Below, one piece after another: positions 5,897 through 48,107 of a DNA stretch of 48,107 nucleotides. A program made the translations under genes and the position numbers. The stretch spans positions 1 to 48,107 of the forward strand of contig CALPVV020000007.1 in assembly GCA_943327105.2 (NCBI GenBank), in the 5' to 3' direction. Under the pieces are notes generated by a model. That model made no database searches. It saw only the letters and a list, made by a program, of their open reading frames with translations, and was not told the origin of the DNA. Numbering within the stretch: position 1 is the first letter of the stretch; each line of letters opens with the position of its first letter. The stretch comes from Nitrosovibrio sp. Nv4 (GTDB lineage Bacteria > Bdellovibrionota > UBA1018 > CAIMNF01).

Positions 5897-7141
5897 TTAT
5901 TCATACTTCTTGAAGGTGGCGCTGTCAATCTGAGTAAGAGAGTGTTCACCGTGTAATTTCACATTTTGAAGCAAATCTCCGCGTTCTGGGTGATTTTTGT
6001 CCTCGTTTGTGAAGCGCGTGCGTCTTTTACCGTCTTGGCCACACATGAAAAATTCGCTGGTGCGTTTGCTCAATGATTTTGATGGACTGACCAAGCGGTA
6101 GCGCTCTTCGTTGAGGCCCTCAAAATTTCCAAAAAGTTCATTCAGGCTGCGGTTGGTTTTTTGAATTACGAGGTACGAGAACGGCAGGGTGCGGCGATCC
6201 AGACCGGTCAAAAGGTCGAGTTCACGCAGGTATTTCGGACGCATCCAATCGACCTCTTCGTGGCACCAGTCTTCTTCTTTGATCAATGCTCCACAGGCTT
6301 GTTCACCCAAACAGGGCAGCAAAATCTTGAGTGAGGAATTGCCGCCTTTGATTTTTTCAATCAGTGCTTTGCGCAGCAAAAGAAGTTTACGTGATTGAAG
6401 TTTCAGCGCTGGTTCTACGATGACCATCAGGCCTTCTTGTTCAAGATGATTTTCAGCAGTCTTTAAAAGTTCAAGTGCGATTGCTTCCGGCGTGAGAGGA
6501 CTTTCATTCAGGAAAAAACTCATCACCATCAGGTGAAATTGAGGAGCGGTTTTTGGTAACCAGGGTTGGTTGAGTTCCACTCTGCGATGAAAAGAGCGGG
6601 ATTTGTAGGTCATTCCATATCGATCTGCAAGATGATCAAACCAGTTTGCGCCCATTTGCAGTGCGGCTTTACTTTGTTCGATCAGCGCGAATGAACCGTT
6701 TTCAGGAAGTCCGATCGGAGCAAATTTTTCACCGGCCAGAATTCCGCATGCGCCCGATGCGACACCTGCGCCGAATTCAAGTCCTCGAAATTCACCTTCG
6801 ATTTTAGGAAATTGAAAACCAAGGCGATGGAGTTCAGCCCATACGCTGGCAACGCGGAAAAGGTTAGGTGGCATGAATGAAAGCAGGTACGCCAGGCGTT
6901 TGTTCTTTGCATTGCCTTCAGACCAGTAATCTTCGTGGTCGATGCCGTCTGTCTGGGTGCCTTCCTTGCGATTGAACAATTCTGAGAAGCCTTTGACGTG
7001 CGGAGCGATCGATCGAGTGAGGTAACGCTTGTTTTCGAGGGGGTCATTCAAGTCAATTAATTGACTCTTGATCAAAAAATCAGCCAAAATCGGCTCAAAA
7101 TCATTTTGAAATGCGTTTACTAATGAAACTGGAACTCTCAT
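5897..7141 (-). CDS. Rsm22-family ribosome-associated methyltransferase-like protein
   Basis: The 414 residues show a class I methyltransferase core, with LEFGAGVASG (121-130) at the SAM site and FHLMVMSFFLNE (202-213) at the motif IV position. They also show the Rsm22/METTL17 cysteine pattern: C277 and C283 (PCLGEQACG), C293 in the hallmark DWCH, and C367 (MCGQDGKR). In the mitochondrial relatives four cysteines hold an iron-sulfur cluster and the protein acts in small-subunit assembly. The spacing here suggests the cluster is kept. Its start codon (7139-7141) overlaps by two bases the start of the divergent gene at 7140. It precedes tatA by 3 bp. The role in ribosome assembly is inferred from the family. 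Confidence 0.75.
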   Translation of the reverse strand: MRVPVSLVNAFQNDFEPILADFLIKSQLIDLNDPLENKRYLTRSIAPHVKGFSELFNRKEGTQTDGIDHEDYWSEGNAKNKRLAYLLSFMPPNLFRVASVWAELHRLGFQFPKIEGEFRGLEFGAGVASGACGILAGEKFAPIGLPENGSFALIEQSKAALQMGANWFDHLADRYGMTYKSRSFHRRVELNQPWLPKTAPQFHLMVMSFFLNESPLTPEAIALELLKTAENHLEQEGLMVIVEPALKLQSRKLLLLRKALIEKIKGGNSSLKILLPCLGEQACGALIKEEDWCHEEVDWMRPKYLRELDLLTGLDRRTLPFSYLVIQKTNRSLNELFGNFEGLNEERYRLVSPSKSLSKRTSEFFMCGQDGKRRTRFTNEDKNHPERGDLLQNVKLHGEHSLTQIDSATFKKYE

Positions 7142-9086
7142 GCGTTACCCTGTGATTATTGTGAAATTAGGTTTACTTGAAGAACGGTCCACTCGTCCAC
7201 CTACAATTTTAGTTTTGGGGCAGGGCGCTCTGGCTGAGCAGATTAAGAATGATTTTTTAGAATTGGGCCTGAAGGCTCAACTCGTGGGCGGAGAACTCAC
7301 CGATTTTCCGTTGCCTAAGCTGACTGATATCGATGCAAAAGAGCAATTTGAAGCTCTCTTCAGGCATTGGGTCGCTCAGACCGGCGCCGAGTGGGTTCAT
7401 CCCGGCGTGACACTTTGGAGTGAACGTTCCGAATTTGAAGGTTGGGCAAGGCAGGCTGGTTTATTTTCAATCAGTGTCGCACCCAAGACCCTGCACCTTT
7501 TCTGGAACACTCACCATTTGATTCAGTTGGCTGAAGATGTGGGCGTTCCCAATCTTGGTTTCGGTGAATTGCCGATGACCTCGATTCGTGAAATCGAAAA
7601 CACCATTCGCAAGCTCGCACAGAATGATCGCGCAACTTTGCCATTCGTTCTTCGTAGCGCTTTTCGCGCTCGAAGCGGTTACGGTTCAAGAATCATTCGC
7701 AGCATGGAAGATTTGCAAGAGTGGGTTCCGATCTGGTTGAACCAGTTGAGGGAATATACCGGCCAAACTCTTTTATTCATCGAAAAGCACCTGGAAAGTC
7801 CACGCTCTTATTATCAGCCGTTTGCACGTTTGAAATCAGGTGAGATCGAGTTCTTTCCGATCGTCGATGCTTCACTGACTTTCGAAGGTAAGAACTGGAT
7901 CGAAGTTTGTCCTGCTCAGAGCATCGACAACGAAACAAAAGCTAAGATTGAAGATTATACCCGTCGCACCTTGGAAAAAGCCGATTTCGTCGGCGTAGGT
8001 GGATTGATTTTCATGTGCAATGGTCGTGAGGTGTATTTGACCGAAGGGTTGGCGCGTCCGAATTTCGCTTATCGTCTTTGGGAAAATGTTGGCCGTACGA
8101 AAGCCCTGCAGTGGCAGTTGCATGCATTGGCTCCGGGCTTGATTTCCCAGCCGCCGAAGCCTCGTCCGAAATTACAGGCAGCCTCACCGATTTGCGGGCT
8201 CAATTTGAAAATTTATGCTGAAGACACCTGGCTGAAAATTCCTCATCCTGGGGCAGTTCACGAAGTTTCTACCAAAACGGACTGGGCTGAAGGCGCTAAC
8301 GAGGGAAGTCTGGTTTGGGACTATAAGCCCGGACAAGAAGTTCTTTGGAATGATAGTGGTTCAATCGGTCACCTCACGGTGTTTGCCGATGGTTGGAAAG
8401 AAGTGTTGTCGGCAGCCCGTTCGATCATGAAAGACCTCTGGATTTCAGGTGGCATTCAAACCAACGAACGATTCCTTTTTGATCTGCTTTCTCACCCGTG
8501 GGTTGAAGAGTCGATGTTTTACACCGGCTTTGTGGATGAAGAATTCATTCCCCGTCAGGTTCCGGATTTTGATTGGAGCTCGATTCTTACTGCGGTCATG
8601 ACTGAAGTAAGTGAGCCATTGAGTGAAAAAGAATCGTGGATTTGGCTCAATCAGCGTTTACCGATGGATGCTCCTGGAAAATTGAGATGGACCCAGCGCG
8701 TGGATTTCGAAGTAAACGGTGCCCGCGGTGTGAAGGGTTTCTTCCAAAAAGAAAATGGTGAGCCAGAACGCATTTGTGCATATCCGCTTCATGCGGGTCG
8801 TTATGTGGTTCGAGTGAGGAATTGGTTTTTCTCGCTACGCCGTTCTGAAAAGGGGCGTCCATTGCAGTTGATGGCGCTGACCGGCGGACGGATACACTCC
8901 ATTTTTGCTAGAGAAGGTTCTAAAATCGAGCCAAAGAAAAACGTACTCATCATCGAGTGTCACCAGCGATTGGTGTCGCATCGCTTGCCGGTTCCGGTGC
9001 TTTTGAAAGAATTAAAAGCTCATCCGGAAGACATTGTTAAAATCGGACAAGAACTTGCAGAACTCGAAAGATGGAGTGATACTTGA
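7140..9086 (+). CDS. Degenerate biotin carboxylase / biotinyl-domain fusion (pseudoenzyme)
   Basis: This 648-residue protein follows the acyl-CoA carboxylase alpha-subunit layout. It has a biotin-carboxylase N-domain (about residues 20-130, with WVHPG at 85-89), an ATP-grasp part (about 165-330), the biotin-carboxylase C-domain (about 350-470, with GGIQTNERFL) and a biotinyl-like domain at the end (about 580-645, beginning TGGRIHSIF). Active-site positions are lost. The usual EMNTRLQVEH is here TEGLARPNFAY, so the Asn and the catalytic Glu are gone. The usual PRHIEVQ is PRSYYQP, the glycine-rich loop is eroded, and the biotin-accepting EAMKM is ECHQR (606-610), with Gln in place of Lys. It therefore cannot be biotinylated at that site and probably has a non-carboxylase role. 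The start is uncertain; a GTG at 7161 is an alternative. Confidence 0.8.
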   Translation: MRYPVIIVKLGLLEERSTRPPTILVLGQGALAEQIKNDFLELGLKAQLVGGELTDFPLPKLTDIDAKEQFEALFRHWVAQTGAEWVHPGVTLWSERSEFEGWARQAGLFSISVAPKTLHLFWNTHHLIQLAEDVGVPNLGFGELPMTSIREIENTIRKLAQNDRATLPFVLRSAFRARSGYGSRIIRSMEDLQEWVPIWLNQLREYTGQTLLFIEKHLESPRSYYQPFARLKSGEIEFFPIVDASLTFEGKNWIEVCPAQSIDNETKAKIEDYTRRTLEKADFVGVGGLIFMCNGREVYLTEGLARPNFAYRLWENVGRTKALQWQLHALAPGLISQPPKPRPKLQAASPICGLNLKIYAEDTWLKIPHPGAVHEVSTKTDWAEGANEGSLVWDYKPGQEVLWNDSGSIGHLTVFADGWKEVLSAARSIMKDLWISGGIQTNERFLFDLLSHPWVEESMFYTGFVDEEFIPRQVPDFDWSSILTAVMTEVSEPLSEKESWIWLNQRLPMDAPGKLRWTQRVDFEVNGARGVKGFFQKENGEPERICAYPLHAGRYVVRVRNWFFSLRRSEKGRPLQLMALTGGRIHSIFAREGSKIEPKKNVLIIECHQRLVSHRLPVPVLLKELKAHPEDIVKIGQELAELERWSDT

Positions 9087-9089
9087 TTC

Positions 9090-9389
9090 ATGGCAAGTTA
9101 CTCAAAAAATTTCCAAGTACCAGGTAAAATGGCTGATTCAATCTATGCTTCCATAGCTGGCGATATCGATCGCTTTCTCAGTAAGAGCTCAATTGGCAAT
9201 TACGAAGTGAAGCGTGACGATTCAGCAAAAAAGGTGTCGTTCAAATCTTCAATGGCCAGCGGTACTCTTTCTGCGAAAGATGAACAGCTTCAGGTTGATA
9301 TTTCTCTTAGTCTTCTAGCGACTCCGTTCAAGGGCAAGATCGAGGAAGGAGTCACGAAGTGGCTCTCGAAGACTTTTGCAAACAGCTAA
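9090..9389 (+). CDS. Small protein resembling the polyhydroxyalkanoate-granule system family
   Basis: The 99-residue protein starts 3 bp after the pseudo-carboxylase gene. Its second half (GTLSAKDEQLQVDISLSLL, then ATPFKGKIEEGV) matches the pattern of the putative polyhydroxyalkanoic acid system protein family, in which a beta-rich segment G-x-I-x-V is followed by LPLLLxPFxxKIExxI. The N-terminal half is less typical. No signal peptide or membrane segment is seen. Function is unknown; no PHA synthase is in the window, so a storage-granule role is not supported by context. Its end overlaps murJ by 14 bp. Confidence 0.55.
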   Translation: MASYSKNFQVPGKMADSIYASIAGDIDRFLSKSSIGNYEVKRDDSAKKVSFKSSMASGTLSAKDEQLQVDISLSLLATPFKGKIEEGVTKWLSKTFANS

Positions 9390-10989
9390 AAGCCAACAGC
9401 AAAAAGATTCTGGTTCTTCCGTACTGAAATCAGCAAGCGTAATGAGTGTTGCGGTTTTTTTAAGCCGCATACTTGGATTGGTGCGCGAGCAGGTTTTTGC
9501 AGCGCTCTTTGGTGCTTCTCATGCTACCGATGCCTATCAGATTGCATTTCGAATTCCGAATCTTCTTCGTGATCTATTTGCAGAAGGGGCGATGAGTGCC
9601 GCATTGGTGCCAACGTTCATTCAAGTTCAAAAAGAAAAAGGTGTTGATCGCGGGTGGCAGGTTGCTACGCGGGTTTTCGTCTTTCTTTTCCTGATCGTCG
9701 GTTTGCTTGCTGTTTTGGGAGTTTTCTTTGCCGAGCCAATCATTGAATTCTATGCGGGTGCTTATCATTCTGTTCCAGGTAAGTTCGAACTTACGGTAAA
9801 AATGACCCGTATCATGATGCCGTTCTTTCCATTGGTTGCGCTTGCGGCAGCATTCATGGCCATTTTGAATGCTTGTGGAAAATTCTTCATGCCGTCTTTC
9901 GCTTCAGCGATGTTCAATGCGGTTTCAATCATTACCGGTGTAGTGTTGGCCAATTTGTTTCCGGGGTGGGGGCGTGAACCAATAGAGGGTATGGCCTACG
10001 GAGTGATTGCCGGAGGCTTTGTTCAGGCATTGATTCAGTGGCCGGTTCTTCGAAGACAAGGGTATCGCCCGTTATGGAGTCAGCCCGACTCGGTCAGTTC
10101 TTTGAATGATCCTGCGCTTCGAAGAATGATGTTTTTAATGATCCCGGGCACGGTGGGACTGGCCGCTACCCAAATCAATATTCTCGTAAACAGTGTATTT
10201 GCCACATCGGTAGGTGCAGGTGCGGTTTCGTGGTTGAATTATGCATTCAGGCTCATGCAGTTTCCGATCGGTATTTTCGGAGTTTCGTTAGCCTCTGCAA
10301 CACTTCCTGTTTTTAGCCGTGCTTGGAGTTCGCATCATCATCAAGATGCTTCAGACTCTCTTTTAAAAACAGTGAAGCGAGTGTTTGCAATCAATTTTCC
10401 GGCTTCAAGCGGTTTAGCGTTTTTAGGTGTCCCGATCATTGCGTTGATCTTCGAACATGGAAAATTCTCGCGAGCAGACACGGTCAGTACTGCAAATGCG
10501 CTAGCGGCATATGCGGTGGGGTTGACTGCGTATTCGGTTGTGAAGGTATTGGTTCCGATTTGTTATGCAATCGGTGAAACAAGGCTAGCCGTGTTTTCAA
10601 GTGTGTTTTCGGTGGGTTCGAACCTTTTGTTCAACTTCCTCTTTGTGAAAAAACTTGGCTTTGTCGGCCTGGCTCTCGGCACTTCGATTACTGCAATTTT
10701 GAATTCAATTCTTCTTTGGTACTTCATCTCTAAAAAATTTCGCCAAAACGGAGTATCCACCCATCTCGTTGAAGTATTGAAGTCCATGACCCTTTATGGG
10801 GTTGCGGCTTTAGGGATGGGGGCGCTGGTTTGGTCAATTGATCATTGGCTTGCTGAATCGGTTTCAGTGCTTTTTCGGGTGGCGATTGGCATGGGGGTCG
10901 GCGTTGTTTCGTACCTTGGACTGAGTATTTTGCTAAAACTTGAAGAATCACTTGATCTTCTGAGGATGATCAAGCGAAGATTGGGTTAA
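9376..10989 (+). CDS. murJ: Lipid II flippase MurJ
   Basis: The 537-residue polytopic membrane protein matches MurJ/MviN. The N-terminal signature is SVMSVAVFLSRILGLVREQV, followed by a TDAYQIAFRIPNLLRDLFAEGAMSAALVP block. The hydrophobic segments are consistent with 14 helices and the length is usual for the family. MurJ moves lipid II across the inner membrane for peptidoglycan synthesis. The frame opens with a TTG at 9376 inside the previous gene. The ATG at 9442 would cut into the conserved first helix, so the TTG, or a nearby alternative start, is more likely. Its stop codon shares a base with the ATG of the next gene (TAATG), indicating translational coupling. Confidence 0.93.
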   Translation: MQTAKSQQQKDSGSSVLKSASVMSVAVFLSRILGLVREQVFAALFGASHATDAYQIAFRIPNLLRDLFAEGAMSAALVPTFIQVQKEKGVDRGWQVATRVFVFLFLIVGLLAVLGVFFAEPIIEFYAGAYHSVPGKFELTVKMTRIMMPFFPLVALAAAFMAILNACGKFFMPSFASAMFNAVSIITGVVLANLFPGWGREPIEGMAYGVIAGGFVQALIQWPVLRRQGYRPLWSQPDSVSSLNDPALRRMMFLMIPGTVGLAATQINILVNSVFATSVGAGAVSWLNYAFRLMQFPIGIFGVSLASATLPVFSRAWSSHHHQDASDSLLKTVKRVFAINFPASSGLAFLGVPIIALIFEHGKFSRADTVSTANALAAYAVGLTAYSVVKVLVPICYAIGETRLAVFSSVFSVGSNLLFNFLFVKKLGFVGLALGTSITAILNSILLWYFISKKFRQNGVSTHLVEVLKSMTLYGVAALGMGALVWSIDHWLAESVSVLFRVAIGMGVGVVSYLGLSILLKLEESLDLLRMIKRRLG

Positions 10990-11435
10990 TGTTCACGAAA
11001 AAGGATCACATCAAGGTATTGGCTAAGAATCTTGTCAGTCGCTTGGAGCAGGACGAGTCAATCGCCTTGAACCCACGCACACGTCACATGGTTTATCAGG
11101 ATTTGTATGTAAAACTGAATCCATACATTTTGAGCGATGAAGAAGTGAGAGAAAAAATTCTCACTCAACTCGGTCAAAAGTCAGAAGCTCTGACTGATAC
11201 CGGTCTCGCTGAATCAGACCAATATAAAGCTGCAAAAGCCGTATTGATGAACAAGATCGGTGAAAATGCGGTTCATGGTTTGTATTACCAGATCCCAATC
11301 AAAAACGTTGCTGTTCTCGTGGTTCAATTCCTTATGAGCCACAATCAGGTCGAAGAGGTCTATCTTTCAGATGATGATCTTGAGAAGACCATCGTAGATT
11401 TCTTCAAGAAGTTCGATTCAAGCCAGCTTCATTGA
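10989..11435 (+). CDS. DUF507-like protein of unknown function
   Basis: A 148-residue soluble, helical, acidic protein. The opening segment (HIKVLAKNLVSRL ... DLYVKLNPYILSDEEVREKI) resembles the DUF507 pattern of a short helix, a polar linker and a DExxR/E segment. The second half may be a divergent repeat of the same unit (IPIKNVAVLVVQFL ... LSDDDLEKTIVDFF). DUF507 proteins are common in deltaproteobacteria and have no known function. The start codon overlaps the murJ stop by one base. A consensus promoter for the next gene begins at the stop codon of this one. Confidence 0.6.
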   Translation: MFTKKDHIKVLAKNLVSRLEQDESIALNPRTRHMVYQDLYVKLNPYILSDEEVREKILTQLGQKSEALTDTGLAESDQYKAAKAVLMNKIGENAVHGLYYQIPIKNVAVLVVQFLMSHNQVEEVYLSDDDLEKTIVDFFKKFDSSQLH

Positions 11436-46412: not shown

Positions 46413-47690
46413 TCAGCTGTTCGGGTTGTACACCGGTTTGGCTTTTTCGGGTTTCTTGGTTTCCGGTTTTTCTTTAGCGTCTTTTGGCAAGTGTTTGCTG
46501 GTTTGAGAGCCAACGGTATTGAAGTTCGTGTTCCACATCTTGTCAGACTGCTTCAACCACATGTTGAACATTTCCGTGTTCACGAAGTTGATGCCGATCC
46601 GGGTGCCGAAATCGGTGGCAAGGTATGCGCTTTCTGAAGCGAATTTGTTCGGAATTTTACGTTGAAATTGCTTTCTCAATTGTGGAAAGCCCTTCATGTA
46701 AAGTGGGTCGGTGATCATTACCATGCGGGGAACCGGGTAAATCGCGTCCCAAGCGCTCAGGCTGGCGATCTGCATGCCTATCTCTTTCATGTTCACGTCT
46801 TTCCATTCCTTCTCGCCTCGGGCAACCTGTTGCATGGTGTGAAAGCCTGCATATGTTACGTTCGTCAGCGGCGAGAGAATCATGTACTCGACGTAGTTGT
46901 TCATGCCGATTTTGATTTTCTCTTTGCGGGTGATCTGGCCGAAGTCGATTTTATTTCCGATCTCGCCTTTGGCAATCGTGTTGCGGCAACCGAGTTCAGA
47001 CATGATCGGTGTCCAGAACAGGGTTGAAGAAAGCATGTCGAATGGGTAGCCCGCTTCCGGGTTTTTTGCATACGAACCAAAGAGTCCGACGCTGGTGAGG
47101 GTGAGGCCGGTCACCATGCTTCGAACTGCCTCTGCCTTGTTTTTTCCAAGACAGGTGCTGTTGAGTTTGCGGGTGAGGTAGCCACCGATTTTCTTTTCGT
47201 GGCAAACCTTGTTCTCGCCGCATTCTTTGGCGATCTTTCTCAGTTCATCGGGCAATTCAGCTGCGACTTTTTCTAGGTCGGCTTGAGGCACTGCTTGTTT
47301 GAAGTCTTGATAGCGGCTGTTTACGTATTTGCCCAATTGTTCGTCTTTGCCGAGCTGACCGGGGTTTTCCTTGATGAATTTCTTGAAGGCTTCAGCATCA
47401 AGGTTGCCATCATAAACAGCAAACTGATCGATGGCATTGTCGACCGACTTCGACCAGTCTTCTTTACTGAGTTGTGAGGCTTTCTTGAAAAGCTCATCGT
47501 TATAGTAAGCGGCGGCTTCATGTCTTGTTTTCAAGCCCTGAGTGCCTTTTCTTTTTCCAAGTGATTCAAGTACGTTGGTCAGGCAGTCTTGTTGTGGTTT
47601 GAAAATAGGAGAAGCCGTTGCCGTCAAAGTCAACAGACTGAGCCCGGTAAACACGACGATCAATGGGTGTTTGTTTCTTTTTAGGGTCAT
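46413..47690 (-). CDS. Secreted or envelope protein of unknown function, first of two tandem paralogues
   Basis: The 425-residue protein has a signal peptide (ending ATAS, about residue 27), a helical charged region (about 45-190) and five cysteines. A hydrophobic middle begins near residue 195 (SMVTGLTLTSVGLF), and a conserved C-terminal part contains SPLTNVTYAGFHTMQ, TDPLYMKGFPQLR and LATDFGTRIGIN. The same blocks occur in the gene cut by the window end. It ends in a Lys/Pro-rich tail. I do not recognise the family. The ATG overlaps the stop of the upstream paralogue by 4 bp. Confidence 0.7.
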   Translation of the reverse strand: MTLKRNKHPLIVVFTGLSLLTLTATASPIFKPQQDCLTNVLESLGKRKGTQGLKTRHEAAAYYNDELFKKASQLSKEDWSKSVDNAIDQFAVYDGNLDAEAFKKFIKENPGQLGKDEQLGKYVNSRYQDFKQAVPQADLEKVAAELPDELRKIAKECGENKVCHEKKIGGYLTRKLNSTCLGKNKAEAVRSMVTGLTLTSVGLFGSYAKNPEAGYPFDMLSSTLFWTPIMSELGCRNTIAKGEIGNKIDFGQITRKEKIKIGMNNYVEYMILSPLTNVTYAGFHTMQQVARGEKEWKDVNMKEIGMQIASLSAWDAIYPVPRMVMITDPLYMKGFPQLRKQFQRKIPNKFASESAYLATDFGTRIGINFVNTEMFNMWLKQSDKMWNTNFNTVGSQTSKHLPKDAKEKPETKKPEKAKPVYNPNS

Positions 47691-48107
47691 GAGTCCTCTT
47701 TTGTCTCAGCAGTCGGTGTTGGAGAAGCGGTTGGAGTTTTTCCAATGAATTTCGTATCGAAATATTGATCAGAAGCATCCAGCCACTTGTAGATGATCTC
47801 GGTCGAAGCTGAATTGATGGCGATTCGAGTTCCGAAATCAGAAGCGAGATAGACGCCCTCTGCCGCGGCTTTCACTGGAATCTTGTTGTAGTAGAAATTC
47901 CTCAGTTTCGGAAAGCCCTTCATGAAGAGTGGATCGGTAACCAAAATGGATCGTGGCATCAAAACGGCTCCGTCCAGAAGGGTTAAGCTGATCATTTGTT
48001 TAGTCATGTCTTTGAAGTTCAGATCTTCCCACTTTTTTTCACCTTCTGAAATTTGTCGAATGGTGTGAAGGCTCATGTAGGTCACGTTCGTGAGCGGAGC
48101 AATTTTC
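47687..48107 (-). CDS. Tandem paralogue of the preceding protein, 5' end outside window
   Basis: The frame is open to the right edge, so only about the last 140 residues are seen. They parallel the neighbour: APLTNVTYMSLHTIRQ, TDPLFMKGFPKLRN and LASDFGTRIAIN align with SPLTNVTYAGFHTMQQ, TDPLYMKGFPQLRK and LATDFGTRIGIN. The C-terminal tail is Ser/Thr/Pro/Glu-rich. The first visible codons (KIAPLTN) continue the homology beyond the GTG at 48085, so the real start lies outside. A tandem duplication with a 4-bp overlap is the simplest reading. Confidence 0.72.
   Translation of the reverse strand, partial: KIAPLTNVTYMSLHTIRQISEGEKKWEDLNFKDMTKQMISLTLLDGAVLMPRSILVTDPLFMKGFPKLRNFYYNKIPVKAAAEGVYLASDFGTRIAINSASTEIIYKWLDASDQYFDTKFIGKTPTASPTPTAETKEDS

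Follow-up and report, generated by a model that had tools for sequence, protein, structure and literature searches.

The locus examined here raises the question of what role is left for a protein laid out like the alpha subunit of an acyl-CoA carboxylase once the residues of biotin chemistry have been replaced. The gene concerned (7140..9086, + strand) lies in a stretch of 48,107 nucleotides, hereafter the window (contig CALPVV020000007.1, positions 1 to 48,107, assembly GCA_943327105.2), from a genome named Nitrosovibrio sp. Nv4 (GTDB lineage Bacteria; Bdellovibrionota; UBA1018; CAIMNF01) that is 2.31 Mb in size and 92% complete. A first-pass annotation made from the letters alone had described a catalytically dead biotin carboxylase/biotinyl fusion, for which a new binding or regulatory role was suggested rather than a pseudogene. 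The comparisons presented here point to a carboxylase-derived pseudoenzyme that may act as a lineage-specific non-catalytic binding protein in a locus with PF09650 and MurJ genes. We hold this overall reading with about even confidence, and a non-catalytic binding role taken by itself appears probable.

The open reading frame (ORF) is undamaged, as the annotation had stated, and encodes 648 amino acids (aa) from its listed start. Because the MKLGLAE or near-variant starts of close orthologues align with VKLGLLE of the window copy, the true start is probably the GTG at 7161, giving a protein of ~641 aa. Homology to biotin carboxylases and the domain order of acyl-CoA carboxylase alpha subunits were found by Pfam, hhalign and PDB profile searches, which establishes the fold family. 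In the window protein, CPSase_L_D2 was matched above its cut-off (5.8e-8) and Biotin_carb_C below it (3.2e-6, 27.6 bits against 32.4), and these domains were matched in 28/28 and 27/28 family members, respectively. A profile of 28 orthologues matched two PDB chains end to end, 9tps_G (positions 16-638 of 644, E 1e-47) and 9yx0_D (positions 11-640, E 1.6e-42), which bears out the claim that the order of domains is retained. The biotin-carboxylase-like region, in which the catalytic residues are lost, spans approximately residues 23-470 (7206..8549, +), followed by a BT-like segment of one helix and then strands (residues ~471-570; 8550..8849, +) and a biotinyl/carrier-like domain (residues ~571-641; 8850..9062, +). 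The BT-like segment had no BT-domain match in the Pfam search; it is covered by the end-to-end match to 9tps_G, and it was the best-predicted part (block predicted local distance difference test (pLDDT) 59-83 at 471-560, in 641-residue numbering) of a poor AlphaFold model built from 9 sequences (mean pLDDT 43.5, predicted template modelling score (pTM) 0.26). The carrier-like domain was matched by PF00364 in 3/28 family members, and a C-terminal profile of 9 sequences matched the transcarboxylase 1.3S carrier (1dcz, E 3.7e-4). None of the curated NCBIfam cut-offs was reached by the window protein, the best scores being 65.4 bits against 1114.45 (pyruvate carboxylase) and 50.3 against 626.5 (accC). 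Like the acyl-CoA carboxylase alpha subunits (PDB 8j4z, MCC alpha; 9tps_G; 9yx0_D), the family thus has colinear biotin carboxylase, BT-like and carrier-like parts over ~640 positions; unlike them, it lacks the catalytic Asn, Glu and His and the biotinyl Lys, and no carboxyltransferase gene accompanies it in 25 genomic contexts.

The residues of the window copy were compared, in a MAFFT alignment, with AccC of the same genome and eight biotin carboxylases of the same order with intact motifs, using the numbering and roles of the residues of Escherichia coli AccC (K116, K159, H209, E211, E276, E288, N290, E296, R338 and others). With the E. coli residue given first, the replacements are K116 to T, K159 to R172, H209 to S223, E211 to Y225, Q233 to T, H236 to G, K238 to N, E276 to I, N290 to L304, V295 to F309, E296 to A310 and R338 to K. 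The metal-ligand Asn, the Glu of QVEH, the His and Glu of the bicarbonate site and most active-site Lys and Gln residues are therefore gone, and from the catalytic set K116, K159, H209, E276, E288, N290, E296 and R338 only E288 is kept. In the carrier-like domain, ECHQR (residues 606-610; 8955..8969, +) stands where carriers have the EAMKM biotinylation motif, with Gln 609 in place of the biotinyl Lys. The annotation had been right about this Lys, about the His of PRHIEVQ and about the Asn and QVEH Glu of EMNTRLQVEH; the first Glu of EMN persists (E302, equivalent to E288), so that only part of its statement on that motif stands. Its selective loss of every active-site element was overstated, since the Arg of NTR (R306, equivalent to R292) and the EK pair E215/K216 (E201, K202) are also kept.

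A shift of the alignment, by which the Lys and Glu would lie at displaced positions, was looked for and is absent. Profile-profile alignment by hhalign of 40 family sequences with eight true carboxylases (probability 100, E 2.6e-46) placed TEGLARPNFAY opposite IEMNTRLQVEH without gaps, in agreement with MAFFT, and that of the C-terminal part with two biotin carriers of the same genome (probability 97.2, E 3.3e-11) left the register of the biotinyl site unchanged; the HMMER matches listed gave the same register. The profile used 40 of 43 members, three partial ones (G032, G037, G039) being left out of it and kept in the residue counts below with gaps set aside. Because MAFFT and the two profile-profile alignments agree, the losses are not due to misalignment, and the protein is predicted from its residues to be without catalytic activity.

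The age of this loss was addressed in a sample of 240 genomes, 55 from the order and 185 others of the phylum, with at most five candidates scored per genome. A scan of the whole collection with the window protein, which reaches close relatives only, returned 8 loci; a profile search covering the order and the sampled phylum genomes detected the family in 43/55 genomes of the order (8.5e-100 or better), further pieces of the same genes being matched in G037 and G032 at 5.5e-65 and 4.5e-60. The other profile hits listed in the order were at 1.1e-56 or worse, and we take them for ordinary biotin carboxylases, eight of which were checked at the residue level; among the 185 other sampled genomes of the phylum, the best hit was 5.3e-55. 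Synteny added two forms outside the 43, a 119-aa fragment in G052 and a diverged copy of 503 aa in G054, bringing the total to 45/55. No form of the gene was found in the remaining ten (G013, G014, G019, G021, G023, G026, G042, G047, G050 and G051), some of which are 72-78% complete. The G054 copy stands at the same locus (L103:2286-3794, +), and this lineage is possibly in transition.

None of the 43 orthologues carries the complete catalytic set, so the loss is old and shared, neither a sequencing error nor recent decay; homologues with intact motifs, which would have spoken for either, were sought in vain among them. N290 and E296 are each retained in 1/43, in different genomes (G035 and G036), and E211 in 0/42. 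The biotinyl Lys is present in 0/42, one sequence having no coverage of the site, and is replaced by G (21), Q (15), R (4), E (1) or H (1), which sets the family apart from biotin carboxyl carrier proteins. Retention at the ATP site is wider: R292 is kept in 37/43, K159 in 35/41, K116 in 15/41 and E276 in 24/43, the last three mostly outside the group of the window copy (f1), and an acidic residue is found at E276 in 29/43 and at E288 in 28/43. Within f1, K116 and E276 are lost in 13/13, whereas the Lys at K159 and the Glu at E288 are each kept in 12/13, Arg at the K159 position being confined to the window copy. The loss of biotin chemistry is thus common to the family, and the ATP site has been eroded more deeply in some lineages than in others. 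Across the order, the members line up as a natural series in which the loss of an ATP-grasp active site ranges from partial to nearly complete. In a tree, the 43 members stand apart from eight ordinary carboxylases with 100/100 support, f1 forms one group, and the separating branch is very long, at ~3.3 changes per column, of which 2.44 lie on one side of the midpoint root and 0.86 on the other. The branch is too long for the tree to point to descent from a particular type of carboxylase. The likeness to AccC amounts to 21-24% identity over the carboxylase domain; the long branch separates the two, and AccC and two more carboxylases with intact motifs are separate genes in the same genome. Searches of an open-access literature library showed no account of a complete biotin carboxylase/carrier protein retained in a non-catalytic role, and we know of no earlier full-length pseudoenzyme in this family.

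Selection was assessed by comparing synonymous and non-synonymous substitution in relatives, as the annotation had proposed. Nei-Gojobori estimates, obtained with our own script, are given for the 7 of 78 pairs in which the proportion of synonymous differences (pS) was below 0.72. The ratio of non-synonymous to synonymous substitution rates (dN/dS, omega) of these genus-mate pairs was 0.022-0.035 in six and 0.121 in the seventh, and with synonymous divergence (dS) of 1.0-2.1 these are coarse estimates, yet well below 1. Synonymous sites were saturated in 12/12 of the pairs that include the window copy (the nearest, G005, had a pS of 0.78 and a proportion of non-synonymous differences of 0.16), and omega of the window copy is therefore not measurable. 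Neither a disrupted frame nor relaxed selection was seen, and the purifying selection among genus-mates disfavours a pseudogene. Together with the old shared loss it supports a putative binding or regulatory role, as the annotation had suggested.

The conserved residues also appear to have been reset. A conservation of 85% or more within the family is reached at 73 positions of the carboxylase part. Six or more of the 8 true carboxylases have the same residue at 31 of them, and fewer than six do at the other 42, 27 of which carry a family residue that occurs in none of the eight. At a further 19 conserved family positions, fewer than 4 of the 8 carboxylases have an equivalent. Family-specific conserved residues in or beside the catalytic segments are W93, F121, P227, F228, C257, W314 and W325, with bulky replacements of L by W93, M by F121, Q by P227, V by F228, T or S by W314 (four residues past the E296 position) and E or L by W325. 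This pattern looks like remodelling rather than decay, and we infer that the old pocket has been remodelled or filled. Near the former biotinyl site, His 614 is 98% conserved.

The genomic context was examined in 25 contexts of 11-20 kb, all selected around the carboxylase-like gene, which is thus present in 25/25. A conserved locus was evident, with the usual order of a divergent Rsm22-like methyltransferase gene, the carboxylase-like gene, a PF09650 gene of ~100 aa, MurJ, a 148-aa DUF507-like gene and MltD; the neighbours were counted in 22 (Rsm22-like), 19 (PF09650), 20 (MurJ), 18 (DUF507-like) and 16 (MltD) contexts. These counts are lower bounds, since a simple ORF caller was used and opposite-strand ORFs masked some genes, including the carboxylase-like gene itself in L037, L059 and L070. 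In the window, the PF09650 (PHA_gran_rgn) gene (99 aa; 9090..9389, +) begins 3 bp past the carboxylase-like stop in the same direction, and the MurJ lipid II flippase gene (9376..10989, +, as listed from a TTG) is the next gene of the probable operon. In 38 of the 40 genomes with both genes on the fetched stretch, the PF09650 gene follows in the same orientation after no more than 79 bp; the other two have gaps of 538 and 2017 bp. The stretches fetched for G034, G037 and G045 did not include it. Its profile matches 51/55 genomes of the order, with weak matches in three (f3). Despite the Pfam name, a function in polyhydroxyalkanoate (PHA) metabolism should not be assumed here, because no PhaC_N (PHA synthase) match was found in the same genome, and this reading of the neighbour was rejected. 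The best match of the PF09650 protein among solved structures had an E value of 0.19.

As the PF09650 gene and the MurJ locus are the strong association that remains, a scaffold or ligand-binding role together with the PF09650 product is favoured with moderate confidence. Early in the evolution of the order, a fused alpha subunit with biotin carboxylase, BT and carrier parts would have ceased to carboxylate biotin and to bear it, and been retained for binding instead of catalysis. Most likely it would be a soluble scaffold or adaptor that binds a protein or small ligand through a remodelled active-site face or through the carrier-like domain, and the candidate partner would be the PF09650 protein encoded immediately downstream in the locus shared with MurJ. 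A scaffold function has an even chance of being correct, and the PF09650 protein, which is the best candidate, is proposed as the partner only tentatively. It is rather unlikely, though conceivable, that a complete alpha subunit, with its biotin carboxylase and carrier parts, was domesticated once, in one order, as a structural or ligand-sensing partner of the PF09650 protein in the MurJ locus, through which cell-envelope synthesis would respond to a metabolic or lipid signal. In any case, the family offers a concrete way into the function of a PF09650 protein encoded next to MurJ where the genome has no PHA synthase match.

Several findings weigh against a binding protein of this kind. The Rsm22-like and PF09650 genes adjoin without the carboxylase-like gene in G026, G047, G050 and G013, so the gene is dispensable and is not required by the PF09650 protein in every genome. 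In G014 and G019 (f3), too, MurJ stands with the DUF507-like gene in its absence, and the locus, otherwise in place, has either gained the gene by insertion or lost it. Membership of the operon is read from gene order. Outside f1, the protein has diverged faster than its neighbours at the level of the order (25-34% identity to the window copy versus 48-61% for MurJ). The AlphaFold model is unusable. Finally, K159, K116 and E276 persist in many members, mostly outside f1, so that nucleotide binding or altered chemistry is conceivable.

Among the alternatives, the one that survives best is a regulator resembling the plant biotin attachment domain-containing (BADC) proteins, which are the nearest concept to a dead carboxylase/carrier (PMC11926652). 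The dead alpha-like protein would join real carboxylase, carrier or carboxyltransferase subunits and tune or assemble an acetyl- or acyl-CoA carboxylase, much as BADC, a carrier-type protein without the biotinylation motif and with a non-catalytic role, is described there to inhibit or help assemble the plastid enzyme. BADC as described corresponds to the carrier only, whereas the present protein is bacterial, also includes a degenerate carboxylase domain and has at most a hypothetical link to the carboxylase. The retained domain order would suit such a role, and real subunits are available: the genome encodes three other biotin carboxylases with intact motifs, including AccC, with carrier and carboxyltransferase genes apart from the locus, and candidate partners exist throughout the order, a carboxyltransferase match and a biotin/lipoyl match being present in each of the 55 genomes. 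Because these proteins are encoded elsewhere, the carboxylase-like protein is not a missing carboxylase. Its presence does not track that of full-length acyl-CoA carboxyltransferases: the gene is present in G038 and G045, where PF01039 is matched no more than weakly (best 6.8e-16 and 6.3e-17; genomes incomplete, at 89% and 86%), and it is absent from G026, G013, G014 and G019, each with strong ones (best 1.4e-131 or stronger). Nor did the 25 contexts contain, near the gene, any of the tested kinds of carboxyltransferase, carrier or further biotin carboxylase, all 178 tblastn hits falling on the family gene itself. Co-occurrence and neighbourhood thus give no sign of a holoenzyme, and the BADC-like role, weakened in both respects, is unlikely.

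A re-purposed ATP-grasp enzyme or nucleotide sensor, in which ATP binding survives in many members and new chemistry might act on another substrate, appears slightly less likely still. It would fit the retention of K159 (35/41), R292 (37/43) and acidic residues at E276 and E288 (29/43 and 28/43), and the family-specific conserved residues beside the old pocket. However, the metal-ligand Asn is lost in 42/43, f1 lacks K116 and E276 throughout, and the window copy also lacks the Lys at K159; one chemistry across the order would require that these sites be replaceable.

That the gene is a slowly decaying, functionless carboxylase paralogue on its way out is improbable. The ten genomes in which none was found (some of them incomplete), the diverged 503-aa copy in G054, the faster divergence relative to MurJ and the weakly conserved BT-like region are compatible with decay, but the frames are long and intact over deep divergence, omega is near 0.03 in genus-mates, and family-specific residues are conserved. 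An artefact of alignment, assembly or frame, with shifted motifs or sequencing errors, can practically be dismissed: many of the genomes are fragmented assemblies resembling metagenome-assembled genomes, but the register is the same in MAFFT, hhalign and HMMER matches and the same losses recur in 43 genomes.

Two other candidate explanations were rejected. The carboxylase-like, PF09650 and Rsm22-like proteins gave 0 PADLOC matches at E 0.01, which does not suggest anti-phage defence, and the GC (guanine plus cytosine) content and codon-position GC of the gene resemble those of its neighbours, which does not suggest a foreign origin.

The remaining features of the locus can be described briefly. 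The divergent gene that borders it encodes the Rsm22-like methyltransferase (5897..7141, -), whose Pfam family takes its name from a protein of the mitochondrial small ribosomal subunit; this ORF starts at 7141, in overlap with the start of the carboxylase-like ORF as listed at 7140. The DUF507-like protein of 148 aa (10989..11435, +) had no DUF507 match in Pfam in its window copy, and one orthologue matches PF04368 weakly and below the cut-off (E 0.0022). In G026 (L099:4377-5238, +), the DUF507-like gene comes next after the PF09650 gene, without an intervening MurJ; MurJ lies between the two in G047 and G013 and after the PF09650 gene in G050. In G025 (L058:5962-7962, -), a 667-aa protein with C-terminal tetratricopeptide (TPR) repeats is encoded between the carboxylase-like and PF09650 genes, and ORFs related to it lie directly downstream of the carboxylase-like gene in G034 and G045 (L055 and L069). 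Elsewhere in the window, the adjacent ORFs at 46413-47690 and 47687-48085 (-) have C-termini that are similar by eye and are apparently tandem paralogues.

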